DNA from: Betaproteobacteria bacterium HGW-Betaproteobacteria-9
GTDB taxonomy: Bacteria; Pseudomonadota; Gammaproteobacteria; Burkholderiales; Burkholderiaceae_C
Assembly (NCBI GenBank): GCA_002842215.1
Contig: PHCC01000005.1
Span: 186,001-250,000, forward strand
Direction of reading: 5' to 3'
Length of the DNA stretch: 64,000 bases
How positions within the stretch are numbered: the stretch's first letter is position 1; each line of letters begins with the position of its first letter. Below the pieces are notes generated by a model. It saw nothing but the letters and a program-made list of their open reading frames with translations, was not told the origin of the DNA and made no database searches. Positions 4,135 to 51,800 of this stretch are shown piece after piece. The position numbers and the translations under genes are program-made.

Positions 4135-4397
4135 GGTGCTGACACATCGGGTTGATGGGTCAGATTGTGGAAGTCAGGGGGAAAAACTAAAGGGCGATAA
4201 AGCCCGGTTGGATCCCGCTTTTCCGGGAGCGGCCGCTCAAATGCAGAAGCTCATCAAGCACCACAACCGGCCAGAGGCCCAGCCGGAGAAAAATGTCCGA
4301 GCCCAGGCCACCGCGGAACTGGCTTTGCCAGGCCGCCAGTGGCGCCCCCTTGAGGGGGTCGCGCGCAGCGCGGCGGGGGTGGGCCACAAAGCCTCGG
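4135..4397. other. Spacer between flhB and cheZ
   Basis: No gene is supported here; the short open frames are antisense or out of frame. The part nearest cheZ holds a family-1 repeat (4307-4382). The rest is the likely leader and promoter region of flhB. No clear sigma-28 or sigma-54 motif was found. Confidence 0.6.
4307..4382 (-). repeat. Family-1 multi-hairpin repeat, copy 1 (behind cheZ)
   Basis: It begins 15 nt after the cheZ stop in the transcribed direction. The outer stem is GCCAC (4307-4311) with GTGGC (4339-4343), around a CTGGCtttGCCAG inner hairpin. A CCCCC/GGGGG hairpin and a GCGC-rich hairpin follow. Confidence 0.85.
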
Positions 4398-5012
4398 CTA
4401 GAAGCCGAGGCTCGCCAGCAAGTCGTCCACCTGCGCCTGGTCGCTCACCACATCGGTCCGTCCCTCGGGGGCAACCACCGGGCCGTCGAGCTCCAGCACC
4501 TTGTCCTGACCCGGCACACCACACGGCGCGGATTGCAGCAACAGCGCCAGCAACTGCTCCTCGATGGTGGACGCGAGCTGGACCACACGGGCGATCACCT
4601 GGCCGGTGAGGTCGTGAAAGTCCTGCGCCATCATGATCTCGGTCAGACGGACGTCAGACTTTTCGCTGTTCTGCACCACCTCGTTGGACCACTTGAGCAA
4701 CTCGGGCATGGCCGTGGAAAGCCCCGGCACGGTGCTGATCGAGTCCACCAGCTGGCGACCCCGGCGCGTGATCTGTGCCTGCTCGGCCTTGGCGCCCTCC
4801 ACGTGGTTGAGCACCTTGTCGGCGGCCTCGCCGGTGAGGCGGGCGATGTAGGACAAGCGGCTCTGCGCATCGGGCAACTGGTCGACCGTGCCCTTGAGCT
4901 TGTCGGTGTAGCCGAGCTCCTTGAGCGCGTCGTGCAGCTGGCGCGTGATGCTGCCGAGCTGCTGGAACATTTCGGGGCTGCCTTGGCTGTCTTGAACGTT
5001 GTCGCTGCTCAT
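4398..5012 (-). CDS. cheZ: CheZ, CheY-P phosphatase
   Basis: A 204-residue, largely helical protein. The catalytic stretch AQDFHDLTGQ holds D134 and Q138, equivalent to D143 and Q147 of the enteric enzyme, which position water to hydrolyse phospho-CheY. The C-terminus (QAQVDDLLASLGF) is the classic amphipathic CheY-docking peptide. It lies 19 nt behind cheY and reads with it. A second, shorter protein with the same DxxxQ signature is encoded at 28.2 kb, so this locus may have two CheY phosphatases. Confidence 0.97.
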   Translation of the reverse strand: MSSDNVQDSQGSPEMFQQLGSITRQLHDALKELGYTDKLKGTVDQLPDAQSRLSYIARLTGEAADKVLNHVEGAKAEQAQITRRGRQLVDSISTVPGLSTAMPELLKWSNEVVQNSEKSDVRLTEIMMAQDFHDLTGQVIARVVQLASTIEEQLLALLLQSAPCGVPGQDKVLELDGPVVAPEGRTDVVSDQAQVDDLLASLGF

Positions 5013-5031
5013 GCTGAACTCCCTGACAGGC

Positions 5032-5418
5032 TCAAAGGCCCAGTTTCTTGAAGATGTTGGCGAGCTTGTCTTCCAGCGTGGCCTTGGTGAAGGGCTTCAC
5101 GATGTAGCCAGCCGCCCCGCCCTGAGCCGCCATCACGATGTCTTCCTTGCGCGCCTCGGCCGTCACCATCAGCACCGGCAGGTGCTTGAGGGCTTCGTCC
5201 TTCTTGATCTCGGTCAGCAACTGGAACCCGTTCATATTGGGCATGTTGATGTCGCTGACGACAAAGTTGAAGGTGCCGTTGCGCAGCTTGGCGAGGGCAA
5301 TGACGCCGTCTTCCGCTTCGTCGGCATCGGCGTGACCGATTTCCTTGAGCAGGTTGCGCACGATGCGGCGCATGGTGGAGAAGTCGTCAACAATCAGGAA
5401 TTTCATGGGGCTGGACAT
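5032..5418 (-). CDS. cheY: CheY, chemotaxis response regulator (first copy)
   Basis: A single REC domain of 128 residues. The acidic pocket is near D11-D12, the phospho-acceptor is D56 (VVSDINMP), the switch Thr is T86 and the conserved Lys is K108 (YIVKPF). Phospho-CheY binds FliM/FliN and reverses the motor. An internal start (MKFLIVDD, four codons downstream) is possible. Being paired with cheZ rather than cheA, this is the likely motor-binding CheY, while the copy at 28.7 kb sits next to cheA. Confidence 0.95.
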
Positions 5419-5451
5419 GGTGGGCCTCCGGGGGCGGGAACTTGAGGAAGG

Positions 5452-6540
5452 TCAACGGGGTTTCGGGACACCAAACTCTTCCCGAGGTTTCGGCACTTCG
5501 GCCAGTTTCTGTAGATCGGGAAGACCAAAGGGTCGCGGCGACGCTGTGGCCACCGGGGGCGCTGCGGTCAGCGCGGGTGCTTCGGCGGTGTCGGCCGGCA
5601 TCGCCGCCGCCGGGGGTGTGACGCCGGTTTCCAGTGGCAGGGCAGCGCCTTCACCGGATGCCTCGGGGGCTTCACCCGTCGGCATCATGCGTTGCTCCGC
5701 TTCGCGGGTCATCACCAGGATGCTGATGCGCCGGTTCATCGCCGCCACCGGTTGCGCGGGATCGAGCAGTCGGCTCGACGCCAGGCCTTCCACCCGGGCC
5801 AGCTTGCTGTCGGGCAGGCCACCCAGGACCAGCTCGCGGCGCGAGGCATTGGCCCGGTCGCTGGAGAGTTCCCAGTTGCTGTAGCCGCGGTCGCCACTGC
5901 CATAGGGTGTGGCATCGGTGTGGCCGGCCAGCGCAATGCGGTTGTCCACATCCACCAGCGTGGCACCGATGGCGCGCAGGATGTCGCGCATATAGGGTTT
6001 GACGAGTGCGCTGCCGACGTCGAACATGGGGCGGTTCTGGTCGTCCACGATCTGGATCTGCAGGCCGTCGCCCGTGCGTTCGAGCCTGATCTGTGAACCG
6101 AAGTCCTGCAAGGCGGCGTTGTTGGCCACCATGTCCTTGATCTTCTCGTGCAGCGCGTCGATGCGTTGTGCGTCCTTGCGCGCCAGTTCGGCACGCGCCA
6201 TCTGCGCACCGATGAGTTTGGCCGCCCGTTCGGCGTCTCCGCCGTCCACCTGGCCCGCCGACTTGGCCAGGTCACGACCCCCACCGGGCAGGATGCTGTC
6301 ACTGTTGCCGGTGCCGTCGCCGCCCAGGAGCGAGACCTTGACCGGCGCGGCGAAGTAGCTGGCAATGCCCTCGAGGTCGCCTTTGGAAGTCGAGCCCAGC
6401 AGCCACATGAGCAGGAAGAAAGCCATCATGGCCGTCACGAAGTCGGCGTAGGCGATCTTCCACGCGCCACCGTGCGCGACATGTCCGCCCTTCTTGATGC
6501 GCTTGACAATGATGGGCTGAAGCTTTTTTCCATCAGCCAC
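5452..6540 (-). CDS. motB: MotB, flagellar stator subunit (GTG start)
   Basis: I start this gene at GTG 6540, giving 362 residues beginning MADGKKLQPIIVKRIKKGG. The longer frame upstream only translates a repeat. One transmembrane helix (AYADFVTAMMAFFLLMW) carries the proton-accepting D33. A C-terminal OmpA-like peptidoglycan-binding domain contains GHTDATPYG and NWELSSDRA. The tail after residue ~270 is Ala/Pro-rich. A run of G in the upstream repeat (6547-6623) can serve as the Shine-Dalgarno sequence, so the repeat may supply part of the translation signal. MotB anchors the MotA4-5/MotB2 proton channel to the cell wall. Confidence 0.92.
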   Translation of the reverse strand: MADGKKLQPIIVKRIKKGGHVAHGGAWKIAYADFVTAMMAFFLLMWLLGSTSKGDLEGIASYFAAPVKVSLLGGDGTGNSDSILPGGGRDLAKSAGQVDGGDAERAAKLIGAQMARAELARKDAQRIDALHEKIKDMVANNAALQDFGSQIRLERTGDGLQIQIVDDQNRPMFDVGSALVKPYMRDILRAIGATLVDVDNRIALAGHTDATPYGSGDRGYSNWELSSDRANASRRELVLGGLPDSKLARVEGLASSRLLDPAQPVAAMNRRISILVMTREAEQRMMPTGEAPEASGEGAALPLETGVTPPAAAMPADTAEAPALTAAPPVATASPRPFGLPDLQKLAEVPKPREEFGVPKPR

Positions 6541-6546
6541 GGTGTG

Positions 6547-6623
6547 CCCCCCCCTGCGCCGCTGCGCGGCTTCCCCCCAGGGGGACGGCACTGGCGGCCC
6601 GGCAAAGCCGGTTCCGCGGTGCC
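6547..6623 (+). repeat. Family-1 repeat, copy 2 (before motB)
   Basis: Opposite in orientation to most copies relative to transcription, lying just 5' of the motB GTG. The outer stem is GGCAC (6587-6591) with GTGCC (6619-6623) around CCGGCaaaGCCGG. It faces copies 3 and 4 in the same motA-motB spacer. Confidence 0.85.
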
Positions 6624-6664
6624 CTTGGACAAGTCACGCGCTCCGGAGCGAGACGCAGCCCAGG

Positions 6665-6742
6665 GACAGCGAAGGTCCGGCTTTGCCGGTCTAAGCTGTC
6701 GCCCCCCTTCCAGGGGGGAGCCGCGAAGCGGCGCAGGGGGTG
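6665..6742 (-). repeat. Family-1 repeat, copy 3 (motA-motB spacer)
   Basis: The outer stem is GACAGC (6665-6670) with GCTGTC (6695-6700) around CCGGCtttGCCGG. A C6/G6 hairpin and GCCGCgaaGCGGC follow. It lies in tandem with the truncated copy 4. Confidence 0.85.
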
Positions 6743-6767
6743 GCCCCTGTCCTTCCGGACCGAGATG

Positions 6768-6808
6768 TCGCCCCCTTGGGGGGGAGCCGCGAAGCGGCGC
6801 AGGGGGTG
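6768..6808 (-). repeat. Family-1 repeat, copy 4 (truncated, behind motA)
   Basis: Only the C5/G7 and GCCGCgaaGCGGC hairpins and the terminal GCAGGGGGTG are intact; the variable-stem hairpin has decayed. It begins 11 nt after the motA stop. Confidence 0.75.
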
Positions 6809-6819
6809 ACTCGTCCTTT

Positions 6820-7680
6820 TCACCTTTTGCCTTTCACATGGCCTTCGAGCTCCGCGAAGTTGGGGCGCACGTCTGAGAACAGCACCTTGCGGCCGAACTC
6901 GATCGCCGTGCTGGGCGCATAGCCCTGCATGCTGGCCAGCAAGGTGGTCTTGATGCACAGGAATTCCTTGCCGCTCTCTTCCATCTTCTGCTCCATGAGG
7001 CCGCCCATGGGCTCGACCACGCCATAGGCCAGCAAGATGCCGAGGAAGGTGCCCACCAGGGCCGAGCCGATCATGCCGCCCAGCACCGCGGGCGGCTGGC
7101 CCACCGAGCCCATGGTGTTCACCACACCGAGCACGGCGGCAATGATGCCGAAGGCCGGAAGGCCGCCGGCCAGGCGCGCGATAGCGGCCACGGGTGCATG
7201 CGCCTCCTGGTGGTGGGTCTCGATTTCGGCGTCCATCAGCGACTCGATCTCGTGCGCATTGAGGTTGCCCGAGACCATCATGCGCAGGTAGTCGGTGATG
7301 AACTCGACCACGTGGTGGTCGCTGCCCACGGTCGGGTATTTCTTGAACACGGGCGACTCGTGGGGATTCTCCACATCCTGCTCGATGGCCATCAGGCCTT
7401 CCTTGCGGGCTTTTTGCAGGATGTCGTATTGCAGCGCCAGCAACTCCATGTAACGCGACTTGGTGTACTTGCTGCCCTTGAAACAAGCGCCCAGGCCCTT
7501 CGCCGAAGCCTTCACGACCTTCATCTGGTTGTTCATGAAGAAAGCCCCCATGGCCGCACCCAGGATGGTGATCAGCTCGAACGGCAACGCCGTGAGGATC
7601 ACGCCGATGTTGCCCCCGTGAACGATGTACACCCCGAAGATGCAGGCCATCGAGACGAGAAAACCAATGATGACAAACAT
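6820..7680 (-). CDS. motA: MotA, flagellar stator proton-channel subunit
   Basis: Taken from ATG 7680 (MFVIIGFLVSMACIFG), which has AAAGG nine nt upstream; this gives 286 residues, the usual length. The frame could be extended to a GTG at 7704, but that codon is the end of a family-1 repeat and has no spaced Shine-Dalgarno sequence. Four transmembrane segments are visible, with a large cytoplasmic loop and conserved Pro and charged residues that contact FliG. Its partner motB lies 279 nt downstream, an unusually long spacer filled by three repeat copies. Confidence 0.95.
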   Translation of the reverse strand: MFVIIGFLVSMACIFGVYIVHGGNIGVILTALPFELITILGAAMGAFFMNNQMKVVKASAKGLGACFKGSKYTKSRYMELLALQYDILQKARKEGLMAIEQDVENPHESPVFKKYPTVGSDHHVVEFITDYLRMMVSGNLNAHEIESLMDAEIETHHQEAHAPVAAIARLAGGLPAFGIIAAVLGVVNTMGSVGQPPAVLGGMIGSALVGTFLGILLAYGVVEPMGGLMEQKMEESGKEFLCIKTTLLASMQGYAPSTAIEFGRKVLFSDVRPNFAELEGHVKGKR

Positions 7681-7702
7681 GTTCCAGACCTTTGAAAGGA
7701 TC

Positions 7703-7777
7703 ACCCCTGCGCCGCCTGCGGCGTCACCCCCTCAAGGGGGCGCCAGCAGCGGCCCGGCACAGCCGGTTCCACACGGG
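7703..7777 (+). repeat. Family-1 repeat, copy 5 (before motA)
   Basis: Lies 5' of motA in the minority orientation. It has GCCGCctGCGGC, CCCCCtcaaGGGGG and CCGGCacaGCCGG hairpins. The outer stem is not clearly complementary in this copy. Confidence 0.75.
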
Positions 7778-7880
7778 CCGGGCTCGCAGCATCACCGCGA
7801 TCGGCACACACCAGGGAATTCCAGCCACTGAGATTTCTATCGGTCAACTTTAGGGCCGAGTGAAGGAGGCCATGAACGCG

Positions 7881-7906
7881 AAAAGGACCCTGATGGGGGT
7901 CCTTTT
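7881..7906 (-). terminator. Rho-independent terminator behind flhC
   Basis: A hairpin with arms of AAAAGGACCC type (7881-7890) and GGGTCCTTTT (7897-7906). On the minus strand it is followed by a short T run, which ends transcription after flhC. The flanking A/T tracts make it nearly symmetrical. Confidence 0.7.
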
Positions 7907-8026
7907 CAAACTTTGAGCCGATGGCGGAGAGCAGTTCTACCAACCTTCCGGAGCGAGGTGTCCCAACCCAGAACACCGCGGAACTGGCTTTGCCAGGCCG
8001 CGCCGGAGTGAAGTGCTCCAACCCAG

Positions 8027-8107
8027 AACGCGGCGGGACCGGCTTTGCCGGACCGCTCGCGTTGCCCCCTTGATGGGGTGACGCGCCCTTGGGCGCGGCG
8101 CGGGGGT
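8027..8107 (-). repeat. Family-1 repeat, copy 6 (behind flhC)
   Basis: Starts 5 nt after the flhC stop. The outer stem is AACGCG (8027-8032) with CGCGTT (8058-8063) around CCGGCtttGCCGG. It is preceded by the linker motif TCCAACCCAGAA seen beside several copies. Confidence 0.85.
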
Positions 8108-8112
8108 GAGCC

Positions 8113-8652
8113 TCAATGCAAACGGAGACCTCCGTTTGCCACACCCTTGCCCGCACGCGCCGGCGGCTTGCACAGGCCGCAGACGAAGTTGCGGGCGTTT
8201 TCATACGGCTCGGTGACGAAGTGGCCACCGCAGCAGGAGCACTTGGTCAACGTGAGCATGCCGTTGTCGACAAACTTCACCAGGCGCCAGGCGCGGGTGA
8301 TGGACAACAGGGGTTCGATGGCACTGGCCGTCATCTGCTCGCTGTACAGGCGGAAGGCCTTGATCACGGTGTCGATCTCTTCGAGCTCGCTGGTCTTGGA
8401 CAGGTACTCGTGGATGTTCAGGAACAGCGACGAATGCACATTCGGCTGCCAGGTCAGGAACCAGTCGGTCGAAAAGGGCAACTGGCCTTTCGAAGGCGAC
8501 TTGCCCGCCACTTCCTTGTACAGGCGCAGCAGGCGTTCATACGACAAGCTGGTTTCGTATTCCAGCACCTGCAGGCGCGCACCCAGCTGGATCAGGGCCA
8601 CCGCGCGCTCAATGTCACGCGACTCGTTCAGGATGCTTTTTGCGGTGGCCAT
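8113..8652 (-). CDS. flhC: FlhC, flagellar master regulator subunit
   Basis: Start set at ATG 8652 (MATAKSILNESRDIERA), giving 179 residues; the longer upstream frame is spacer and repeat. Four cysteines, C138, C141, C158 and C161, form the zinc site known in this family. FlhC joins FlhD in the FlhD4C2 activator of class II flagellar promoters with RNA polymerase sigma-70. The C-terminus (PPARAGKG and beyond) is basic. The flhD-flhC spacer holds a family-1 repeat behind flhD, which is unusual for two subunits that must be made in balance. Confidence 0.96.
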   Translation of the reverse strand: MATAKSILNESRDIERAVALIQLGARLQVLEYETSLSYERLLRLYKEVAGKSPSKGQLPFSTDWFLTWQPNVHSSLFLNIHEYLSKTSELEEIDTVIKAFRLYSEQMTASAIEPLLSITRAWRLVKFVDNGMLTLTKCSCCGGHFVTEPYENARNFVCGLCKPPARAGKGVANGGLRLH

Positions 8653-8695
8653 GATGCGAACTCCAGAGAGGGGGAGAGAAGTGACTTCAACCAAG

Positions 8696-8770
8696 GGCGC
8701 CGAGGAACCGGCTTCGCCGGGCCTCCAGCGCCGCCCCCTGGGGGGTGACGCCGCAGGCGGCGCGGGGGGA
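8696..8770 (-). repeat. Family-1 repeat, copy 7 (between flhD and flhC)
   Basis: Begins 4 nt after the flhD stop. The outer stem is GGCGC (8696-8700) with GCGCC (8728-8732) around CCGGCttcGCCGG. C5/G6 and GCCGCagGCGGC hairpins follow. Confidence 0.85.
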
Positions 8771-8774
8771 GTGT

Positions 8775-9113
8775 TCAGTGCGCCGCGGTCATCGACTCGG
8801 CAAACCGGCCGGCCATCAGGATGGACGCGTGCAGCTGGGTCGTCGTGGTGTTGTCGACCTTCTTCACGTTGTGGTTCGTCAAGAGGTTCCACACCAGGTC
8901 GTCGTCCACCCGGAAGCGGCACAGCAGCATGTTGCTCGAAGCGATCTTCAGGAGCTGGGCAGTGGAGAGCATGCCCAGCAGGTCAGCGGCTTCCTCCGTG
9001 ATGCCCAGGCGGTACAGGGCTTCGGCGCGGTCCTTGCGGATCAGGTTCTGCGCCAGCATCAGGTAGGTCAGGTTGGCTTCGCGGATTTCGGCCAAGAGTT
9101 GTTCGCTGTCCAT
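8775..9113 (-). CDS. flhD: FlhD, flagellar master regulator subunit
   Basis: Start at ATG 9113 (MDSEQLLAEIREANLTYLM) with AAGGAG eight nt upstream; 112 residues, as in the family. C65, the residue that forms an inter-subunit disulfide in the enteric protein, is conserved. FlhD confers DNA specificity in FlhD4C2. It is transcribed away from fliC across a 612-nt shared intergenic region, where its own control sites should lie. Confidence 0.96.
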   Translation of the reverse strand: MDSEQLLAEIREANLTYLMLAQNLIRKDRAEALYRLGITEEAADLLGMLSTAQLLKIASSNMLLCRFRVDDDLVWNLLTNHNVKKVDNTTTTQLHASILMAGRFAESMTAAH

Positions 9114-9725
9114 GAAATTCTCCTTGAGATTCCGGGCTGGCTTGGTGAGCGACTTGCTTACATCTGCTTGCCCGATGTATGTAATTGTGTCGACCGTAAA
9201 AATTTCTTGAATCGGCGAATGGCTGTTTGGGCTGTCAGGCACCGCCCTGTGCCTTGTCAGGTTTTTTCCTACATCGTTGGTACACGCGGCGGGGTTGGCG
9301 GCGGGCACGGTTGGCGGGTTTGGCCGAGGTGGGCCGGGGCGTCGGCGGCGGTTGGGTGTCCCGCCCTCCAGCGGCCATCAAGACATGGCACGCCGTGCCG
9401 ATGCCCAACCCGTGGCGCTCCGGCGCCGGGCTCTGCGCACAGCGTGCGACAGCGGTAACGCGAGAAATGGCACACGCATCCCGCGCTTATCCAGAGAAAT
9501 CTTTGTATCAAGGCGCTAAAGAATAGGCCCGGACCACCGAAATTGAACTCAACGAACTTCTAAAAAGGTTCGTCGTCCGGCAAGCAGAAGCGGCGAGACG
9601 GTCGGAGGCCCAGGGCCCAGCCGGCTTGGCGCTACGGAAGCTCCGGTCATGGCGGCCAGCCAGATGGCTGTCGTTGGGACTGGCAGAGATGCCGGACTAC
9701 TTTGTCAAATTTTTAGGAGTTAAAC
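9114..9725. other. 612-nt divergent control region between flhD and fliC
   Basis: No gene is supported. The flhD-proximal part (9120-9260) is AT-richer than the surroundings and is the likely flhDC promoter and regulator-binding region; I could not assign -35/-10 boxes. The fliC-proximal part holds a sigma-28-like promoter (9517-9543), a small hairpin (ACGAAC/GTTCGT, about 9552-9573) in the transcribed leader, and a long fliC 5' UTR of about 175 nt. Confidence 0.6.
9517..9543 (+). promoter_or_regulatory. Sigma-28-like promoter of fliC
   Basis: TAAA (9517-9520), 15 nt, then ACCGAAAT (9536-9543). The consensus I used is TAAA-N15-GCCGATAA. The -35 is exact and the -10 matches five of eight positions. 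Its place upstream of flagellin, the classic FliA target, supports the call. Confidence 0.6.
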
Positions 9726-10550
9726 ATGAGCTCGATCAACACCAACGTGATGTCCCTGAATGCCCAGCGCAACCTGAATGCGTCTTCGGGAGCCCTCGCC
9801 ACCTCCATGCAGCGCCTGTCCTCGGGTCTGCGTGTCAACAGCGCCAAAGACGACGCCGCCGGCCTTGCCATTGCCGAGCGCATGAACGCCCAGGTCAAGG
9901 GCATGAACGTCGCGATCCGCAACGCCAACGACGGCATCTCCATGGCGCAGACCGCTGAAGGCGCGCTGGGCAAGGTGGGTGACTCGCTGCAGCGCATGCG
10001 TGAACTGGCCGTGCAGTCGGCCAACGCCTCGAACTCTGCGTCGGACCGCACCAACCTCAACGCCGAATACCAGCAGCTCAACGACGAAGTCACCCGCGTT
10101 CTCACCGGCACCAAGTTCAACGGCGTGGATCTGTTGAACACGGCCGCCAGCCTCACCTTCCAGGTGGGCGCGAACAACGTGACCACCGATCAGATCGCCG
10201 TGTCCACCACCGTGTTGACCACCGGCACGGGTGTGGCCGCCGTGACGGCCGGTGACATCACCTCCGACACCACCGCCCTGGCCGCCATGGACGACCTCGA
10301 CGATGCCATCGACGAGATCACCACCGCCCGTGCCACCTTCGGTGCCGTGCAGAACCGTTTCGACGCCGTGATCTCCAACCTGCAGGTCGCATCCGAGAAC
10401 CAGGCTGCTTCGCGCGGCCGCATCATGGACGCCGACTTCGCCACGGAAACCTCGAACCTGTCGCGCGGCCAGATCCTGCAACAGGCCGGCACCGCCATGG
10501 TGGCCCAGGCGAACCAGTTGCCCCAGGGCGTGCTGTCTCTGCTGCGCTGA
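9726..10550 (+). CDS. fliC: Flagellin FliC (short form)
   Basis: At 274 residues this is a short flagellin. The N-terminal D0/D1 (INTNVMSLNAQRNL, LSSGLRVNSAKDDAAGLAIA) and the C-terminal D1/D0 (ending VLSLLR) are fully conserved. The exposed middle, about residues 140-190, is brief and rich in Thr/Val/Ala, so D2/D3 are nearly absent. AGGAG precedes the start. It is secreted with FliS as chaperone and polymerises under the FliD cap; both are encoded just downstream. Only one flagellin gene is in the window. Confidence 0.97.
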   Translation: MSSINTNVMSLNAQRNLNASSGALATSMQRLSSGLRVNSAKDDAAGLAIAERMNAQVKGMNVAIRNANDGISMAQTAEGALGKVGDSLQRMRELAVQSANASNSASDRTNLNAEYQQLNDEVTRVLTGTKFNGVDLLNTAASLTFQVGANNVTTDQIAVSTTVLTTGTGVAAVTAGDITSDTTALAAMDDLDDAIDEITTARATFGAVQNRFDAVISNLQVASENQAASRGRIMDADFATETSNLSRGQILQQAGTAMVAQANQLPQGVLSLLR

Positions 10551-10566
10551 TCGGCACCGAACGCTG

Positions 10567-10588
10567 CGCACCACCCGCGGGTGGTGCG
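10567..10588 (+). terminator. GC-rich palindrome behind fliC
   Basis: A perfect inverted repeat, CGCACCACCC with GGGTGGTGCG and a 2-nt centre, starting 16 nt after the fliC stop. There is no T run, so it may be an mRNA 3' stabiliser or a partial terminator rather than a standard intrinsic terminator. It could explain high fliC over fliD transcript levels. Confidence 0.5.
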
Positions 10589-10692
10589 AGCCAGCGGCGG
10601 CGGCAGCCCCCTGCCCCGCCGCGCTCCCATTCGTGGGATGCACAGACCGCATGCCTTCGCGTGCGGTGCGTCCATCCTGAGGAAGGCACAAC

Positions 10693-12108
10693 ATGGCCAC
10701 CATCTCTTCGCCCGGCATTGGCAGCGGGCTCGACGTGCAGAGCATCGTCTCGCAACTGGTGGCGCTGGAAAAAGCACCGCTCAAACAGCTGCAGACCCAG
10801 GCCACCTCGTTCCAGACCAAGCTCTCCACCTACGGCACCATCAAGTCGCAATTCTCTGCCTTGGGGGACGCGGCCGCCAAGCTCGCATCCCCCAATGGCT
10901 GGAGCTCGGTCACCGCCACCTCGTCGAACAGCGCGGCCATCGGTGTGACCGTCGCCGCCGGCGCCCCCGCCACCTCGATCACCATGGCCGTGCAGCAACT
11001 GGCCAAGGCGCAGTCCACCGCATCCAGCGCTGTGGCCACGGGCAGTGGCGCCGGCTCGGGCAGCATGACGATCGAACTCGGCGCCTGGAGCGGCAGCAGC
11101 TTCACCGCTGGCGGTGGCACACCGGTCTCCGTGACGATCAATCCCGGCGAAGACACGCTCGCCGAGATCGCGGCCAAGATCAATGACGCCGACGCGGGCG
11201 TGAGCGCCACCGTGCTCAAGGACGCCTCGGGTGAACGCCTGCTGGTGCGCTCGAAAGAGACCGGCCTGGAAAACGGGTTTCGCATCACAGTCGCTGACGA
11301 CGACGGCAACGATACCGACGCCAGCGGGCTGTCGCGCCTGGCGTTCGCCGTTGGCAGCGCCAACGGCATGACGCAGTCGCAGGCGGGACAAAACGCCACG
11401 GCCACGATCAACGGCGTGTCCATTTCTTCCGCCAGCAACCGGCTCGCGGACACCCTGCCCGGCATGACCCTCCAGCTCAGCCAGGTCACCACCGCGCCGG
11501 TGGAGATCGACGTCAGCGCCGACACCGAAGCCGTGCGCGCCAATGTGCAGGCTTTCGTCGATGCCTACAACACACTCAACAGCACGCTGTCCAATGCGAC
11601 ACGCTACGACGCTGGCACCAAGAAGGCGGGCGCGCTGCAAGGCGACTCCACCGCCACCGGACTGCAAAACGCTCTGCGCGGCATGATGCGCTCAGTCACC
11701 GGCGGCACGCCCTACACGCGCCTGGCCGACGTCGGCATCGAGTTGAAAACGGGTGGCGCCCTGGCCATCGACGCCGAGAAGTTCGACGCCTCGCTGTCCA
11801 ACCTCGAAGGCCTCAAAAACCTGTTCACGGTCGACACCGGCAGTGCCACAACGGAAGGCTTCGGTCGCAAGATCAAGACCTTCGCCGAGGGCCTGGTCGA
11901 CGCCGATGGCCTGGTCAGCACCAAGGCCAGCGCGCTGCAGAAATCGATCGATCGGAATGGCCTGGAGCAGGAGCGCGTCAACGACCGGGCTGCCCGCTCT
12001 GAAACCCGCTACCTGGCGCAATACAACGCCATGGACGCGGCCGTGGCCAAGCTCAGCGGCCTCAACGCCTTCGTCAGCCAGCAGATCACGCTGTGGAACA
12101 AGGGCTAG
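10693..12108 (+). CDS. fliD: FliD, filament cap protein
   Basis: 471 residues. The N-terminal motif is typical (SSPGIGSGLDVQSIVSQLVALEKAPLKQLQ), the middle is variable Ser/Thr/Ala-rich D2-D3, and a C-terminal coiled segment ends in FVSQQITLWNKG. FliD forms the cap that folds flagellin at the tip. It lies 142 nt after fliC with its own Shine-Dalgarno sequence (GAGGAAGG). Confidence 0.96.
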   Translation: MATISSPGIGSGLDVQSIVSQLVALEKAPLKQLQTQATSFQTKLSTYGTIKSQFSALGDAAAKLASPNGWSSVTATSSNSAAIGVTVAAGAPATSITMAVQQLAKAQSTASSAVATGSGAGSGSMTIELGAWSGSSFTAGGGTPVSVTINPGEDTLAEIAAKINDADAGVSATVLKDASGERLLVRSKETGLENGFRITVADDDGNDTDASGLSRLAFAVGSANGMTQSQAGQNATATINGVSISSASNRLADTLPGMTLQLSQVTTAPVEIDVSADTEAVRANVQAFVDAYNTLNSTLSNATRYDAGTKKAGALQGDSTATGLQNALRGMMRSVTGGTPYTRLADVGIELKTGGALAIDAEKFDASLSNLEGLKNLFTVDTGSATTEGFGRKIKTFAEGLVDADGLVSTKASALQKSIDRNGLEQERVNDRAARSETRYLAQYNAMDAAVAKLSGLNAFVSQQITLWNKG

Positions 12109-12240
12109 CTGAACCCTTGCTGCCAACGCCCTGGCATGGCCGTTTGACCGACCGATCAGGCCATTTGCCGTGGTTGGTTCGCGCCCCTTCAAGCCCTTGA
12201 ACACCCATAACAATTCGTCGCAATTGAACATGTCAGAAAC

Positions 12241-12267
12241 TACAGTCCCGGGCGCAGATGCCGATAA
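12241..12267 (+). promoter_or_regulatory. Sigma-28-like promoter of fliST
   Basis: TACA (12241-12244), 15 nt, then a perfect GCCGATAA (12260-12267). It lies 31 nt before the fliS start. The -10 overlaps a small TGCC/GGCA hairpin. Confidence 0.65.
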
Positions 12268-12298
12268 AAAAAGGCATCAGACACAAGGAAATGACACC

Positions 12299-12733
12299 AT
12301 GTTCACCTCTGTCAATTCACGCGCCGCATCCGCCTACAAGCGGGTCGCCGTCGAAACCAGCGTTCAGGGCGCCGACCCGCACACGCTTGTTGGCCTGCTG
12401 TACGACGCCCTGCTGCAATCGATCGCCCAGGCACGTGGCGCCATGTCGCGCGGTGACGTCGAGGCCAAGGGCACCGCACTGGGCAAAGCGGTGCGCATCA
12501 CCGAAGAAGGCCTCAAGGCCGGCCTGAACCTGCAACAAGGTGGCGACCTCGCCGCCAACCTGCAGCAGCTCTACAACTACTGCGTGGTGCGCCTGACCCA
12601 GGCGAACCTGCGCAACGACCCCAAGCCGCTCGAAGAGGTGACCCAGCTCATCGAGCCACTGGCGCAGTCGTGGCAACAAATCAAGGGCTCCGTGCCCACC
12701 CCCCTTCAGCCCCTCACGGGCCGTGGAGCCTGA
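12299..12733 (+). CDS. fliS: FliS, flagellin export chaperone
   Basis: Start chosen at ATG 12299 (MFTSVNSRAASAYKRVAVETSVQG) with AAGGAA eight nt upstream; 144 residues. The frame extends further 5', but that part overlaps the promoter. The signature GADPHTLVGLLYDALL is present. FliS binds the disordered C-terminus of flagellin and stops premature assembly. fliT follows after 2 nt. Confidence 0.95.
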   Translation: MFTSVNSRAASAYKRVAVETSVQGADPHTLVGLLYDALLQSIAQARGAMSRGDVEAKGTALGKAVRITEEGLKAGLNLQQGGDLAANLQQLYNYCVVRLTQANLRNDPKPLEEVTQLIEPLAQSWQQIKGSVPTPLQPLTGRGA

Positions 12734-12735
12734 TC

Positions 12736-13026
12736 ATGGAGCACAGCTTGTTGGACTATTACAAAGCGATCGAGAACGCCAGCCAGAAGATGCTGGAAGC
12801 CGCCCAGACCGAAAACTGGGACCAGGTGGTGCGACTGGAAGGCGCGTGCACGGTGCTCATCGCCCAGCTGCGCAGCAAGTCCCGCAGCGTCCGCCTGGCG
12901 CCCGAAGAGCGCACCGAAAAGACCCGGATCATGAAACGCATCCTGCGCACCGACGCCGAGATCCGCAACCTGGCCGAGCCGTGGTTGAACGACCTGGCGC
13001 TGATGATGGATGCACGAGTGCACTGA
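12736..13026 (+). CDS. fliT: FliT-like flagellar export chaperone
   Basis: 96 residues, all helical, with a weakly conserved sequence. The assignment rests on size, the position directly behind fliS, and a family-like pattern (LLDYYKAIENASQKMLEAA). FliT chaperones FliD and, in enterics, inhibits FlhDC. Start at ATG 12736, leaving a 2-nt gap after the fliS stop. A family-1 repeat begins 3 nt after its stop. Confidence 0.8.
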   Translation: MEHSLLDYYKAIENASQKMLEAAQTENWDQVVRLEGACTVLIAQLRSKSRSVRLAPEERTEKTRIMKRILRTDAEIRNLAEPWLNDLALMMDARVH

Positions 13027-13029
13027 GAT

Positions 13030-13106
13030 CACCCCCCGCGCCGCCTGGCGGCGTCACCCCCCAGGGGGCAACGCTGGCGGCCCGGCAAAGCCGGTTCCGC
13101 GGCGTT
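13030..13106 (+). repeat. Family-1 repeat, copy 8 (behind fliT)
   Basis: Begins 3 nt after the fliT stop. The outer stem is AACGC (13070-13074) with GCGTT (13102-13106) around CCGGCaaaGCCGG. The linker motif TTCTGGGTTC follows. It lies head to head with copy 9 between convergent genes. Confidence 0.88.
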
Positions 13107-13209
13107 CTGGGTTCAAGACATCTCGCGCCGGAAAGCGCAGCGTTGAAGGAACATCGAAGAGAGAAACAGAACTGACGGAACCTGTCCGGAGAACGTGTCC
13201 CAACCCAGA

Positions 13210-13284
13210 GATGCCGAAGATCCGGCTTTGCCGGTCCGATGGCATCGCCCCCTTGAGGGGGTCGCGCGCAGCGCGGCGGGGGTG
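13210..13284 (-). repeat. Family-1 repeat, copy 9 (behind fliE)
   Basis: Begins 5 nt after the fliE stop on the minus strand. The outer stem is GATGCC (13210-13215) with GGCATC (13241-13246) around CCGGCtttGCCGG. Together with copy 8 it fills the spacer between convergent fliT and fliE. Confidence 0.88.
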
Positions 13285-13289
13285 TTTAT

Positions 13290-13598
13290 CTAGACACTCA
13301 TGTTCATGATGTCCGTGTACGCCTGAACCATGCGGTTGCGCACATGCAGCGTGGCCTGGAAGCCGATCTGGGCTTTCTGCATGGCAAGCATGGTTTCTTC
13401 CAGGCTGACGTTGGGGTTGCCGAGCTGGACTTCTTTCTGCAGGCGCGTGGCTTCGTTCTGCGCCGCGCTGACGTCTTTGAGCGCGGTCTTGAAGTTGTCG
13501 GCAAAACCGCCGCCCACACCACCGGCCGCGCCGGGGCGCTTGGTCTGGCCAGTCGGGTTAAGAGCCTGGCTGGACAAGGGGGAAATTCGCAGGTCCAT
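13290..13598 (-). CDS. fliE: FliE, hook-basal body MS-ring/rod junction protein
   Basis: 102 residues. The C-terminal signature is clear: VSLEETMLAMQKAQIGFQAT, then LHVRNRMVQAYTDIMNM. The N-terminus is Gly/Ala-rich, as usual. FliE joins the MS ring to the rod and is exported early. It is transcribed divergently from fliF across 182 nt, which should hold both class II promoters; I could not place an FlhDC site there with confidence. Confidence 0.96.
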   Translation of the reverse strand: MDLRISPLSSQALNPTGQTKRPGAAGGVGGGFADNFKTALKDVSAAQNEATRLQKEVQLGNPNVSLEETMLAMQKAQIGFQATLHVRNRMVQAYTDIMNMSV

Positions 13599-13780
13599 GG
13601 CGGTGTCCTTCTACACAAAGTGAGCAGGCTTTGATGCTATTGAAGGGCGCCAGGCCGCGCTCCGGGAATAGGGGGTCAAACCGGGGCCTTTTCCCCGCTA
13701 TGGCACCGGCCCGGGGGCCGAATAATCGGTCGCAACAGGGGTGATTCCCCCCGACATTGACCGAACTCCCGAGCCCTGCC

Positions 13781-15454
13781 ATGAGCAACACCGTCGCTGA
13801 ACTGGATATCCGCCCCATGAGCCGCAGCGCTCTGGGCGAGGGTCTGTCGCGCATGGACAAGACCCAGAAGACCCGCCTCGGCCTGGGTGCGCTGGCGCTG
13901 GTGGCGATCGCGCTGGCGCTGTTCTTCATGGGTCAACAACCCGACTGGCGCGTGCTCTACACCAACCTGGGCGACAAGGACGGCGGCGCCATCGTCGCCC
14001 AGCTCACCCAGATGAACGTGCCCTACAAACATTCCGAAGGCGGTGGCTCGATCATGGTGCCGGCCGACAAGGTGCACGACACGCGCCTGCGCCTGGCTTC
14101 GCTGGGCCTGCCCAAGGGCACCGTCAACGGCTTTGAGCTGATGGAAGCCAACCGCTTCGGCATGACCCAGTTCCAGGAACGCCTGACCTTCCAGCGTGGG
14201 CTCGAAGGCGAGCTCACCCGCTCGATCCAGTCGCTCTCTTCCGTGCAGACCGCGCGCATCCACCTTGCGCTGCCGAACCAGAACGGCTTTTTCCGCGAAC
14301 AGCAGAAACCCTCGGCCTCGGTGCTGCTGACCCTGCACCCCGGGCGCACGCTGGACAAGGCCCAGGTGGCCGGCATCGTGCACCTGGTGGCTTCGAGCGT
14401 GCCGGAGATGAACCCCAAGGCGGTCAGCATCGTGGACGATGCGGGCAACCTGCTGTCGTCCACGCCCGAAGGCCAGTCCCAGGGTGCCGACACCCAGAAG
14501 CTGCAGTACACGCAGCAGATCGAACAGATGTACACCCGCCGCATCCTCGACATGATCGAGCCGCTGGTGGGCGAGGGCAATGTGAAGGCGCAGGTCAGCG
14601 CCGACGTCGACTTCTCGCTGGTCGAATCGACCTCGGAACTGCACAAGCCCAACCAGTCCGCCGAAGCGGGTGCCGTGCGCAGCCAGCAGATCGTCGAAGA
14701 CGGCAGCCCCGCCGCCGCCCTGCCCGCCGGCGTGCCCGGTGCCACCACCAACCAGCCCCCCACCACAGGCAGCGCCCCGATCAACGGCGAAGCCGCGGCC
14801 CTGGGCGCTGCCGGTGCGGCCGACAAGGCAGCCAGCACCCGTCGCCAGTCGCTGATCAACTACGAAGTGGACAAGACCGTGAAGGTGGTGCGCGAAGCCA
14901 GCGGCACCGTGCGCCGCCTGAGCGCCGCCGTCGTGGTCAACCACCGCAGCAGCACCGATAGGGGCGGCAAGGAAACCACGGCGGCCATCCCCCCGGAGCA
15001 GCTCGAACAGATGACCGCCCTGGTGCGCGAGACCATCGGTTTCAACAAGGAGCGGGGTGACTCGGTCAACGTGGTCAACGCGGTCTTCAACGTCAGCAAA
15101 GCCCCCGAAGAGGTGGCTGTCGCCTGGTGGCGCCAGCCCGAAAACATGGAACTGGCGCGCGGCCTGGCCTGGCCGCTGGGCATGGTGGGCATGGGCCTGC
15201 TGGTGCTGCTGGGCATGGTTCGCCCCGGCCTCAAGCTGATGAAAGCGCCCGCCCTGCCACCCGCCGAGGCCAAGCTCAACGCCATGGTCAACGACCAGCC
15301 CGAACGCCCCGGCCTGCCGATGCCCTCCAACACCAGCAACGAGGCAACACCGGAAACGCGGCGCCTCACCGATGCCAAGCGCCTGGCGCTGGAAAACCCG
15401 ATGGCGGTGGCGAACATCGTCAAGGGCTGGGTCAACGGCGAGGCGCCAGCATGA
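13781..15454 (+). CDS. fliF: FliF, MS-ring protein
   Basis: Start at ATG 13781 (MSNTVAELDIRPMSRSALGEG); 557 residues. There is a transmembrane helix near residues 32-52 and another near 455-475. The periplasmic ring-building motifs lie between, with YTNLGDKDGG early. The cytoplasmic tail ends in a segment that binds FliG (LTDAKRLALENPMAVANIVKGW). It forms the membrane ring that houses the export gate. First gene of the fliFGHIJK run. Confidence 0.97.
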   Translation: MSNTVAELDIRPMSRSALGEGLSRMDKTQKTRLGLGALALVAIALALFFMGQQPDWRVLYTNLGDKDGGAIVAQLTQMNVPYKHSEGGGSIMVPADKVHDTRLRLASLGLPKGTVNGFELMEANRFGMTQFQERLTFQRGLEGELTRSIQSLSSVQTARIHLALPNQNGFFREQQKPSASVLLTLHPGRTLDKAQVAGIVHLVASSVPEMNPKAVSIVDDAGNLLSSTPEGQSQGADTQKLQYTQQIEQMYTRRILDMIEPLVGEGNVKAQVSADVDFSLVESTSELHKPNQSAEAGAVRSQQIVEDGSPAAALPAGVPGATTNQPPTTGSAPINGEAAALGAAGAADKAASTRRQSLINYEVDKTVKVVREASGTVRRLSAAVVVNHRSSTDRGGKETTAAIPPEQLEQMTALVRETIGFNKERGDSVNVVNAVFNVSKAPEEVAVAWWRQPENMELARGLAWPLGMVGMGLLVLLGMVRPGLKLMKAPALPPAEAKLNAMVNDQPERPGLPMPSNTSNEATPETRRLTDAKRLALENPMAVANIVKGWVNGEAPA

Positions 15455-15462
15455 CCATGGAA

Positions 15463-15538
15463 CACCCCCGCCTCGCTTCGCTCGTCCCCCTCAAGGGGGC
15501 AACGCGATGCGGCCTGGCAATGCCAGTTCCGCCGCGTT
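15463..15538 (+). repeat. Family-1 repeat, copy 10 (between fliF and fliG)
   Basis: Begins 8 nt after the fliF stop. The outer stem is AACGCG (15501-15506) with CGCGTT (15533-15538). The inner hairpin has drifted to CTGGCaatGCCAG, with both arms changed together. Confidence 0.86.
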
Positions 15539-15621
15539 CTCGGCTGGGGCAGTTTGCTCCGGATGCGCTGGGTTCGTCCTGGGCGCGCAGACACATTGCG
15601 CATAGCTAAGGAAACACGATC

Positions 15622-22789: not shown

Positions 22790-22868
22790 CCCCCTGCGTC
22801 GCCTTCGGCGCCTCCCCCCTTGAAGGGGGGCGACACCAGAGGCCCGGCGAAGCCGGTTCCTCGGTGTC
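22789..22868 (+). repeat. Family-1 repeat, copy 11 (between fliN and fliO)
   Basis: Abuts the fliN stop codon. The outer stem is GACACC (22832-22837) with GGTGTC (22863-22868) around CCGGCgaaGCCGG. A C6/G6 hairpin comes before it. Confidence 0.88.
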
Positions 22869-22922
22869 TCTGGGTTAAGGCACGTTGCTCCTCACACATC
22901 ATTTTCGGCACTGGGTTCATTC

Positions 22923-24333: not shown

Positions 24334-24409
24334 GCCCCCCCGCGCCGCTTCGCGTCACCCCCCCGGGGGGGCGGCACTGGCCGTCCGGCAAAGCCGGCCC
24401 GGCGGTGCC
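24334..24409 (+). repeat. Family-1 repeat, copy 12 (between fliQ and fliR)
   Basis: Begins 7 nt after the fliQ stop. The outer stem is GGCAC (24373-24377) with GTGCC (24405-24409) around CCGGCaaaGCCGG. A C7/G7 hairpin precedes it. Confidence 0.87.
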
Positions 24410-24454
24410 CTGGGGCTGGCCTCCCCCTCGCCAGCCCTTCTGTAGGTCCCGAAC

Positions 24455-25229: not shown

Positions 25230-25304
25230 CACCTCCGCAGCGCTTCGCGCTACCCCCTCAAGGGGACGGCACTGGCCGTCCGGCAAAGCCGGCCCGGCGG
25301 TGCC
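25230..25304 (+). repeat. Family-1 repeat, copy 13 (behind fliR)
   Basis: Begins 7 nt after the fliR stop. The outer stem is GGCAC (25268-25272) with GTGCC (25300-25304). It may also act as the end of the long fli transcript, as no other terminator is present. Confidence 0.85.
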
Positions 25305-25334
25305 CTTGGCTGGACCGTTTCGCCTGTTGCGGCA

Positions 25335-36763: not shown

Positions 36764-36838
36764 GCCCCCCCCGCGCCGCTTCGCGTCACCCCCCAGGGGG
36801 CGGCACTGGCCGTCCGGCAGAGCCGGCCCGGCGGTGCC
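36764..36838 (+). repeat. Family-1 repeat, copy 14 (behind the hybrid kinase)
   Basis: Begins 6 nt after the stop. The outer stem is GGCAC (36802-36806) with GTGCC (36834-36838). The inner hairpin has CCGGCagaGCCGG. Confidence 0.87.
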
Positions 36839-36919
36839 CTGGGCGGTACCGCTTCAGGCGTCTGGGTCGCTCACCGGCGGCATGAAAGTAGCGATACGGC
36901 TTTGCATTCGGTCCGCAGA

Positions 36920-44525: not shown

Positions 44526-44537
44526 TCGGAAACCTCC

Positions 44538-44585: not shown

Positions 44586-44586
44586 C

Positions 44587-46593: not shown

Positions 46594-46627
46594 TTTCAGA
46601 TACTGTACGCATGAACAGTATCTGAAA
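46594..46627. promoter_or_regulatory. LexA box (SOS operator) of imuA-imuB-dnaE2
   Basis: TACTG (46601-46605), 10 nt, CAGTA (46616-46620) is a full LexA box. It lies inside a perfect 34-bp dyad with 13-bp arms (46594-46606, 46615-46627). It ends 11 nt before the imuA start codon, so LexA would sit on the transcription start or the ribosome site. Confidence 0.88.
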
Positions 46628-46631
46628 GATC

Positions 46632-48753: not shown

Positions 48754-48827
48754 CCCCCGCCGCGCTGCGCGCGACCCCCTTCCAGGGGGCGATGCGAGTG
48801 GCCCGGCACAGCCGGTTCCACCGCATC
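48752..48827 (+). repeat. Family-1 repeat, copy 15 (between imuB and dnaE2)
   Basis: Starts within the imuB stop codon. The outer stem is GATGCG (48791-48796) with CGCATC (48822-48827) around CCGGCacaGCCGG. The linker motif CTGGGTTCGGGCCTGTCGCG follows. Confidence 0.87.
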
Positions 48828-48867
48828 CTGGGTTCGGGCCTGTCGCGCCGGAGAGGGCACGCTCGCC

Positions 48868-51800
48868 ATGACGCTTGAACCACCCGGCATCCCGCCCTAC
48901 GCCGAGCTGCTGTGCCGCTCCAACTTCAGCTTCCTGCGCGGCGCGAGCCGGCCCGAAGAACTGGTCGAGCGCGCCCAGGCGCTGGGCTACACCGCGCTCG
49001 CCCTCACCGACGAATGTTCGCTCGCCGGCATCGTGCGCGCCCATGTCGCCGCGAAGGAGCAGGGCCTGAAGCTGCTCGTGGGCAGCCAGTTCCAGGTGCA
49101 GTGCGACGCGCCGTTCACCCTCGTCGTGCTCGCCACCAACCTCAACGGCTACGGCAACCTCTGCGAGTTCATCACCCGGCTGCGCCGCACGGCGCCCAAG
49201 GGCACGTACCGCCTGACGTTGAAGCACATCAGCGCCGACGCGCTGGCCGACTGTCTGGTGATCGCCGTGCCGCAACGCGGCAGCACGCAGGCGCAGATGG
49301 ACACGGTCGCGCGCTGGCTGCTCCAGCATTTCATGGGCCGCTGCTGGCTCGGCGTGGAGCAGCTGCGCCTGATGGACGACGAGATGCGCCTGCACCGGCT
49401 GCGCCAGAGCAGCGAACTCACCGCCGTGCCGCTGGTCGCGGTGGGCGACGTGCACATGCACCTGCGCTCGCGCAAGGCCCTGCAGGATGTGCTCACCGCC
49501 ACGCGCATCGGCAAGCCGCTCACCGAATGCGGCCACGCGCTCGCGCCCAACGCCGAGCAGCGCCTGCGCTCGCGCCTGGCGCTGGCGCAGCGTTACCCCG
49601 AAGCGCTGTTGGCCGAGACGCTGAAGGTTGCCGGGCGTTGCAGCTTCTCGCTCGACGAGCTGGCGTACCAGTACCCGAGCGAAGTGGTGCCGCCGGGCGA
49701 GACGCCGGCGAGTTACCTGCGCCAGCTGGCCTACGAAGGCATGGGGCGGCGCTGGCCCGCGGGTGCGCCCGCCTCGGTGCAGCAGCAGGTGGAGCACGAG
49801 CTGGCGCTGATCAGCGAGTTGCAGTACGAGCACTACTTCCTCACCGTGTACGACATCGTCGCCTTCGCGCGCTCGCAGCACATCCTTTGTCAGGGCCGTG
49901 GCTCGGCGGCCAACAGCGCGGTCTGTTATTGCCTGGGCGTGACCGAGGTGGACCCGGCGCGCACGGCGGTGCTGTTCGAGCGCTTCATCTCCAGAGAGCG
50001 CAACGAGCCGCCCGACATCGACGTCGATTTCGAACACGAGCGGCGCGAAGAAGTCATCCAGTACCTCTACACCAAATACGGTCGCGAGCGCGCCGCACTG
50101 ACCGCCACCGTCATCAGCTACCGCCCGCGCAGCGCCCTGCGCGACGTGGGCAAGGCGCTGGGTTTCGACGAGGCCGCGCTGGACGCGCTGGGCAGCGGCC
50201 ACCGCTGGTGGAGCGAGGATGGTTTTGCGCCCGAGCGCATCACCGAAGCCGGACTCGATCCGAACAGCCTGAAGGTGCGCCAGCTCGTGGCGCTCACCGG
50301 CCAGCTCATGGGTTTTCCGCGCCACCTCTCGCAGCACACCGGCGGCTTCGTGCTGACCCAGATGCCACTCTCGCGCATGGTGCCGATCGAAAACGCCGCC
50401 ATGGCCGACCGCACCGTGATCGAATGGGACAAGGACGACCTCGACGCCATGGGCCTGCTGAAAGTCGACGTGCTCGCGCTCGGCATGTTGACCGCCATCC
50501 GCAAGTCGCTCGATTTCATCGGCCAGCGCAAGGGCTTCGACGTCCAGATGCAGGACATCCCGGCCGAAGACGCCAGCACCTACGACATGATCTGCGCCGC
50601 CGACACCGTGGGCGTGTTCCAGATCGAGAGCCGCGCTCAGATGAGCATGCTGCCGCGCCTGCGGCCGCGCGCGTTCTACGACCTGGTGATCGAAGTCGCG
50701 CTGGTGCGGCCAGGCCCGATCCAGGGCGGCGCGGTGCACCCCTACCTGAACCGCCGCCAGGGCAAGGAGCCGGTCGACTACCCCAAGGGGCTGGAGGCTG
50801 CGCTGGCGCGCACGCTCGGCGTGCCGGTGTTCCAGGAGCAGTGCATGCAGATCGCCATCATCGCGGCCGGTTTCACCCCCGGCGAGGCCGACGGCCTGCG
50901 CCGCGCCATGGGAGCGTGGCGGCGCACGGGCGGTCTGGGCCACTACCAGAGCCGCCTGATCGACGGCATGACCGAGCGTGGCTACCCGCTGGATTTCGCG
51001 CAGCGCGTGGTCGAGCAGGTGAAAGGTTTTTCCAGCTACGGTTTCCCCGAAAGCCACGCCGCCAGCTTCGCGCTGCTGGTCTACGCCAGCTGCTGGATCA
51101 AGCGCCACCACCCGGCCGAGTTCCTCGCCGGGCTGCTCAACAGCCAGCCGCTGGGTTTCTATTCACCCAGCCAGCTGGTGCAGGACGCTGTGCGCCACGG
51201 CGTCGAAGTGCGTGCGGTGGACGTCATGGAGAGCGACTGGGACTGCACGCTGGAAGAACAGGGCTTCGACGCCTTCTCCTCCTGGGAGAGGGCTGGGGTG
51301 AGGGCCGCCCCCGAGCCCGCCGTGCGCCTGGGCCTGCGTCTGGTCAGCGGCCTGTCGCGCGCCGAAGCGCAACGCATCATCGCAGCGAGAGGGGGAGCCA
51401 CCCCAGCACACACCGAGGAACCGGTTTTGCCGGGCCGTTGGTGTGGCCCCCTTGGGGGGGAGACGCGAAGCGGCGCGGGGGGGGGCTTTCTTGACTCAGA
51501 AGATCTCGCTCGCCGCGCCGGCCTCGACCAGCAAGCCATGCAACAACTCGCCGCCGCCGATGCCCTCATAAGCCTCAGCGGCCACCGCCGCCAGCAGGTC
51601 TGGGACGCCGCCGCCCTCAAAGCCCCACCCGCGCTGCTCAAAGAAGCCCCGATCGAAGAAGACACCCTCGACCTGCCCGAAGCCCCCGAAGGCGAGGCCA
51701 TCGTCTGGGACTATGCGTCACTCGGCCTCACCCTGCGCCGCCACCCGCTCGCCCTGCTGCGCGAGCGCCTGCAGGCGCGCCGCTTCATGACCGCCGCCGC

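Follow-up and report, generated by a model that had tools for sequence, protein, structure and literature searches.

The genome of Betaproteobacteria bacterium HGW-Betaproteobacteria-9 carries a small palindromic element, with a core of about 80 nt, which folds into a closed cloverleaf, shows covariation of its paired positions and in most copies begins 0-20 nt past a stop codon, oriented like the gene that ends there. The element was found in a stretch of 64,000 nucleotides (contig PHCC01000005.1, positions 186,001 to 250,000; hereafter the window). We put at roughly one half (about 0.5) the probability that it represents a non-coding, mobile DNA family that lives much as the repetitive extragenic palindromic (REP) sequences do, is composite in build and tag-less, and acts as an RNA barrier past the stop codon.

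Most copies begin just past a stop codon and share the orientation of the gene

A covariance model search of the window found 16 copies of the ~80-nt element at E <= 1e-4, the number also counted in the original prediction, an earlier reading of the same sequence. The model was seeded with 10 window copies out of 15 first aligned, five with poorly aligned hairpins being omitted, and eight weaker matches (up to E 0.67) were discarded, of which three were antisense echoes, four lay elsewhere and one, at 7973-8009 (E 0.017), was a partial copy. Twelve of the 16 copies begin 0-18 nt behind a stop codon, and all 12 share the sense of the gene, as had been predicted. The twelve genes named beforehand were all recovered, and 11 of the distances fell within the predicted 0-15 nt, the cheZ copy lying outside this range at 18 nt.

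The search was extended to 864 kb (the window plus 800 kb, ~16% of the genome), where genes were called with a home-made codon model that missed some stops; the copy at own57 174507, for example, was called non-stop, yet by eye a TAA stands just before its head. Here 65 of the 90 copies begin 0-20 nt past a stop in the gene's sense, compared with 5.1% for random intergenic placement (binomial P 4e-63). Heads within 20 nt of a start were seen in three copies, tails within 20 nt of a stop or of a start in one copy each, and eight copies overlap a called gene. Between co-directional genes, 51 copies share the genes' sense and five oppose it. When the window was left out, 53/74 copies were stop-anchored and the co-directional gaps held 42 copies with and 4 against the genes' sense; since the figures hold without it, the pattern is independent of the site at which the element was found. 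In the 51 cases with the head at a stop and the tail towards a start, at least 28 nt always separate the tail from that start. The window itself is richer in copies than the rest of the sample (16 versus 5.9 expected, P 0.0004).

Stop anchoring was also observed in relatives. The genome lies nearest to Hydrogenophaga, and in its closest named relative, H. aromaticivorans D2P1 (G040; MotA 98% identical), 39/52 copies are stop-anchored, while 31/48 are so at 40 loci, picked from high-scoring matches, in 34 further genomes, where four of the 17 non-anchored copies are tandem followers of another copy. The expectation of 5.1%, derived from the own genome, was applied to these genomes too, and it represents random placement only, because no control repeat was found: the pattern tried for an intergenic internal control had no matches in the own-genome sample, and a 16-mer count revealed no other high-copy family there. 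Position and orientation proved not to be random in the 864 kb, in the second species or in the other genomes.

Where the gap past a stop measures at least 79 nt, the element stands at 45/241 co-directional and 18/96 convergent stops, that is at 63/337 or about one in five. TGA was not enriched as a target in the 864 kb (39/58 genes with the element versus 169/213 without it at gaps of at least 100, P 0.08). As a separate observation from the same sample, TAG was commoner before the element, preceding it in 12/58 genes versus 19/213 with equal room and no element (P 0.02).

The core folds into a closed cloverleaf with covarying arms

In the reading direction of the upstream gene, the core consists of a C-run, a GC hairpin, a CCCCC-loop-GGGGG hairpin, a long three-segment stem ending in CCGGC-nnn-GCCGG, and CTGGG. 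Folding and covariation bore out the three hairpins described in the original prediction and added a pairing between CCC of the head and GGG of the tail, which shuts the three arms into a four-way cloverleaf. Three of four copies folded in the mRNA sense gave a clean cloverleaf, and the fliT copy folds otherwise yet also pairs its head with its tail; the folding energies of the four ranged from -40.5 to -48.2 kcal/mol.

The model has 78 positions and 28 pairs, distributed over the three arms and the closing stem. In the alignment of the ten window copies (A2) the pairs were 93.9% standard, 11 of them had changed on both sides, and the covariation score of 0.334 was reached by 0/500 shuffles. 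Alignments of 79 copies from the own genome (A4) and of 48 copies from 34 other genomes (A5), which were fitted to the model and hence are biased towards its structure, gave the same structure, and for each of them 0/500 shuffles reached the score; across genomes, double changes occurred in 21/28 pairs, and in helix 4 at 12/15. With the pairing partners shifted by 1-3 columns, 36-54% of the cells were still paired in the three alignments.

The repeat unit is probably longer than the core, because GC[TG]CCGG is enriched in the tails of the copies, occurring within 75 nt past the core in 28/90 own-genome copies versus 4% of random intergenic 75-mers. We also noticed a second and less frequent element, whose C-run head is accompanied by a C6/G6 hairpin and a long hairpin of the form ATCCGGC...GCCGGAT, with five matches in the 864 kb (L036, L056, L034 and two in L065); in three of the five a TGA stands at most 2 bases before the C-run, and a similar stretch lies behind fliP in H. 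aromaticivorans D2P1.

Paired positions change together and without an RNA-strand bias

Selection that preserves the fold of the transcript would be expected to leave more G-U than A-C intermediates. In the own genome the count was 53 G-U versus 34 A-C cells, an apparent excess to which one pair contributed 27 G-U; it was gone once that pair was removed (26 versus 30), and this candidate signature of the RNA strand was rejected. Across genomes the count was 22 G-U versus 17 A-C, and single changes in all helices of 30 orthologous pairs of copies amounted to 15 G-U, 14 A-C and 19 other mismatches. In helix 4 of these pairs, 408 cells were unchanged and 20 had changed on one side, while 17 had gone from one Watson-Crick pair to another and 4 showed other double changes, so that 21 double changes were observed versus 2 expected under independent change of the two sides. 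Because Watson-Crick double changes are frequent and G-U is not in excess, we favour upkeep at the DNA level: the hairpins may be copied or converted as units in DNA, which would be compatible with a role in the transcript too. The only wobble state retained in many copies concerns pair 105-132 of the own-genome alignment, which is U-G in 27 and C-G in 33 of the 79 copies.

Copies are gained and lost, and may be replaced, at orthologous sites

Orthologous sites were compared between the own genome and H. aromaticivorans D2P1, whose DNA is ~95% identical; 22/74 own copies and 6/52 copies of the relative were unmappable, and the 16 of the 90 own copies that lie on contigs C25 and C33 stood outside this comparison. 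Among the own copies mapped, 34/52 are shared and 18/52 absent from the relative, and in the reverse direction 36/46 are shared and 10/46 absent. Pooled over both directions, the orthologous site lacks the element for 28/98 mapped copies, a fast turnover in which copies differ within ~5% divergence; some of the absent sites contain 90 to 770 bp of other sequence. At clean empty sites the element and its tail, when present, fill the space from the stop to the next start. The empty state of the fliN-fliO junction in H. aromaticivorans is TGATATG. The fliH-fliI junction lacks the element in ten relatives, whose two genes overlap there (ATGTCTGA or similar), and holds a full sense copy in five others and a partial copy in one. 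The own genome is empty here; since it is placed among filled relatives, it appears to have lost its copy. Between motA and motB the number of copies varies with the species and takes every value from zero to three.

Sites occupied in both genomes differ as well. Of 33 shared pairs scored, 26 have cores that are 86-100% identical and seven have cores of 69-81%, in the range of random copy pairs (mean 71%), between flanks of ~95%. Different arms were seen in at least three of these seven (4302, 13204 and own57 154765), which we read as replacement or conversion, and others include deletions or nested inserts. This turnover at orthologous sites supports mobility, by transposition as we infer.

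The same comparison bears on how the bias towards stops arises. From the own genome to the relative, 9/18 lineage-specific versus 29/34 shared copies are stop-anchored (P 0.01), which fits selection, and in the pooled set, where shared sites are counted from both sides, 17/28 versus 56/70 (P 0.07). That lineage-specific copies already stand at stops in these 17 of 28 cases would also be expected if some machinery picked post-stop sites in one orientation and its products were retained neutrally, with no RNA function. The fliH-fliI stop/start overlap, likely the older state, which a sense copy interrupts at five loci, argues for such stop-directed insertion, as do the equal use of co-directional and convergent stops and the symmetry of the mutation pattern between strands. 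The missing TGA bias and the existence of inverted and in-gene copies tell against it, and no enzyme able to recognise stop codons in DNA is known to us; we regard it as possible but rather improbable.

The original prediction had offered stop-directed insertion beside a role at the 3' end of the mRNA as stabiliser, attenuator or translation insulator; the turnover lends support to mobility, while the mutation pattern carries no signature of the RNA strand. A resident regulator of the 3' untranslated region, either stabiliser or attenuator and held by selection at the RNA level, would account for the sense bias, the distance from the stop and the stable folds in the mRNA sense. We consider it improbable in view of the turnover within ~5% divergence, the arms that differ at 4302 and 13204 despite near-identical flanks, and the lack of a general excess of G-U over A-C.

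The element is widespread in the family

The element was present in 40/40 Hydrogenophaga genomes searched, with 1 match to at least 118; these whole-genome model searches scored the top candidates of each genome (150, 118, 39 or 23), and copy numbers are lower bounds. In the Genome Taxonomy Database (GTDB) family, two thirds of the genomes sampled (81/120, from 119 genera, 80 of them positive) carry it at E <= 1e-5, and in an order-wide sample 7/200 genomes do so, of which five belong to other genera and three to other families; both searches used stricter filters than that of Hydrogenophaga. No Rfam family matched the window at gathering scores, or positions 4280-4420 up to E 1.

In a genome from another family of the order (G137; loci L266, L267 and L268), 2-3 copies stand in tandem, ~86 to 280 bp from start to start, and the first copy lies behind a stop in L266 and L268. 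The element of this type gave partial matches on five plasmids (Variovorax, Diaphorobacter, Methylibium, Comamonas) and no match when compared with phages.

Intrinsic terminators and transposase-mobilised REP sequences

GC-rich hairpins behind stops, in convergent gaps among others, could be transcription terminators, a reading that we judged for the intrinsic type. A run of four or more T past the tail was found in only 2/90 copies, and none of the eight terminator-like matches in 4000-16000 falls on the ten copies there. The element also stands between co-directional flagellar genes and does not prefer convergent stops, so that we find a terminator highly unlikely.

The element might instead be an ordinary REP or REPIN mobilised by a REP-associated tyrosine transposase (RAYT). 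As in REP sequences, its copies lie mainly downstream of coding regions (65/90), tail-to-tail pairs occur occasionally, and a RAYT-like Y1_Tnp gene is present once in the own genome (G000:C57:78416-79120) and at least once in 34/40 Hydrogenophaga genomes. No element was seen near the transposase in any of 20 loci (~1.5 kb around, less at contig ends; 20 of 36 transposase matches). The transposase occurs in genomes with a single match to the element (G016, G034) as well as in those with more than 100, and was not found in 6/40 Hydrogenophaga genomes, some of them element-rich though incomplete. The REP tag was not enriched either, GTAG occurring in 4/90 and CGTC in 11/90 end zones versus 22 and 31 in one shuffle of the ends, and the multi-arm model of 78 positions does not agree with a single stem-loop of 20-40 bp. 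We therefore give this origin very little credence.

Relation to known repeats and stop-proximal structures

The original prediction held that the placement goes beyond that of ordinary REP sequences, which is partly right. REPs are themselves found near stops: in E. coli 446/4,072 lie within 15 nt of one (RepRanger, PMC12306157), and an earlier study cited there gives 260/496. Most are described as following coding regions, whose stop codon is often supplied by a GTAG terminus (PMC3733652), and REPs are described as often alternating in orientation in bacterial interspersed mosaic elements (BIMEs; PMC2817692); they stand at varied distances from stops. With REPs, BIMEs and REPINs with their RAYT, our element shares palindromy, high copy number, a position downstream of genes and close to stops, and the presence of some copies in replication or repair genes (PMC3733652, PMC12306157). 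It differs in its ~80 nt and four arms (20-40 bp in REP), in lacking the GTAG/CGTC tag, in standing away from the Y1 transposase in the loci searched, and in having mostly one sense relative to the gene.

Among ERIC, Correia, RUP and other repeats resembling miniature inverted-repeat transposable elements, there are likewise small, non-autonomous and structured ones, some of them fused in frame to genes (PMC2229807); the cited parts of that source deal with terminal inverted repeats (RUP) and with orientation effects on mRNA (ERIC), and do not mention stop anchoring.

In the literature searched we found no description of stop-adjacent placement in these genera, and the sole candidate is the beta-proteobacterial repeat element (BRE), whose function is given as unknown by Hot et al. 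2011 (PMC3110155) and for which at most 29 copies per genome are reported. As described there, BRE is GC-rich, ~75-91 bp long and mostly intergenic with some in-gene copies, and occurs in several Comamonadaceae and Bordetella with variable copy number at orthologous loci and in tandem arrays, such as we saw in G137. Our element, too, is a Comamonadaceae repeat of this length with a variable number per locus, and the two may be one family, a likeness drawn from the published description of BRE. Stop anchoring, gene sense, cloverleaf and covariation are features of the present element that the cited parts of that paper do not give for BRE. Judged by eye, the neighbours of the G137 tandem array did not appear to resemble lexA, a locus treated in the BRE paper.

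As a functional analogue, the closest would be the ribosome termination structure (RTS), a stable structure that begins within a few nt of the stop; it differs in being a general folding signal and not a repeat family (PMC7518266). RTS is reported to be more pronounced where operons end and where genes oppose each other, and depleted between the genes of operons and in short gaps (PMC7518266). With stops grouped by the direction of the genes, our element occupies 45/241 co-directional and 18/96 convergent stops at gaps of at least 79 nt; shorter gaps have no room for it.

Individual copies in the window and the dnaE2 locus

All window copies were located with the covariance model, and distances are from the stop to the model start. 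On the minus strand, stop-adjacent copies lie 18 nt past cheZ (4302..4379), 14 nt past motA (6751..6805, a shortened copy), 6 nt past both flhC (8022..8106) and flhD (8691..8768), and 7 nt past fliE (13204..13282). Those on the plus strand follow fliT at 6 nt (13033..13111), fliF at 10 nt (15465..15543), fliN at 1 nt (22791..22873; the orthologous site of H. aromaticivorans has no copy), fliQ at 10 nt (24337..24414), fliR at 9 nt (25232..25309) and a hybrid histidine kinase at 10 nt (36768..36843). Pfam supports CheZ, MotA, FlhC, FlhD, FliT, FliE, FliF, FliN, FliQ (Bac_export_3), FliR (Bac_export_1) and the hybrid kinase. The twelfth copy (48754..48832, plus strand) begins directly at the stop (distance 0) of a gene that we call imuB because it stands before dnaE2, its protein having no Pfam match.

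Three of the other copies lie around motA and motB. A second tandem copy behind motA stands 80 nt from its stop (6660..6739, minus strand), and inverted copies on the plus strand lie 23 nt ahead of the called motA start (7704..7782) and at the motB start with the head facing motB (6551..6628). The called motB start falls within the latter copy, and relatives suggest a start just ahead of its head.

The last copy (51402..51481, minus strand) lies in frame within dnaE2 and antisense to it, in the HHH domain according to Pfam. Among 19 homologous loci of relatives, only the nearest (L155, 95% identical) has this in-gene copy, and five have a copy just upstream of dnaE2, as the window does. By eye, the dnaE2 linker contains in-frame repeats in several species; other Hydrogenophaga (L157, L159, L160, L164) carry a different repeat there, like GGGCTGAGCCTGTCGAAG.

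A probable mobile palindrome that may act as a post-stop barrier

Taking these results together, we propose that the palindromes are kept at the DNA level, through mobility that depends on the hairpins, ectopic conversion or template switching. Once transcribed, the cloverleaf would lie at the leading edge of a ribosome that is terminating. As a barrier past the stop it could hinder re-initiation or run-on as well as 3' exonucleases; sense copies behind stops would persist because of this effect, as has been proposed for stop-proximal E. coli REPs and for RTS.

Several observations weigh against this proposal. Co-directional and convergent stops with at least 79 nt of room are used equally, with no sign of a preference for operon ends, and stop anchoring did not differ between lineage-specific and shared copies when H. 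aromaticivorans was compared with the own genome (8/10 versus 27/36, P 1). In the alignment of window copies, further pair types were no more numerous than in shuffles (355/500). No mobilising enzyme was found, and the RNA role is proposed from position and sense.

Stop-proximal palindromic repeats are known, and effects on translation and mRNA decay have previously been suggested for such repeats; a composite, tag-less and mostly sense-locked family would be new unless it is BRE, in which case the novelty would lie in the placement rule, the structure and the turnover. A single covariance model recovers a family that is stop-anchored in one sense over many genera, with empty and filled orthologous sites. 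Since such sites exist in close relatives, natural comparison can test the effects of post-stop structure on upstream and downstream expression, and can likewise distinguish targeting from selection as the source of the bias. That insertion itself is coupled to translation stops and gene sense, by stop-targeted transposition or conversion, in the 80 of 119 genera that carry the element is a tentative idea that we hold to be doubtful; if true, a parasite-like repeat would provide roomy genes, about one in five of them (63/337), with a prefabricated RNA structure past the stop. The element thus offers a good test case of how mobile DNA becomes part of the ends of messenger RNAs.

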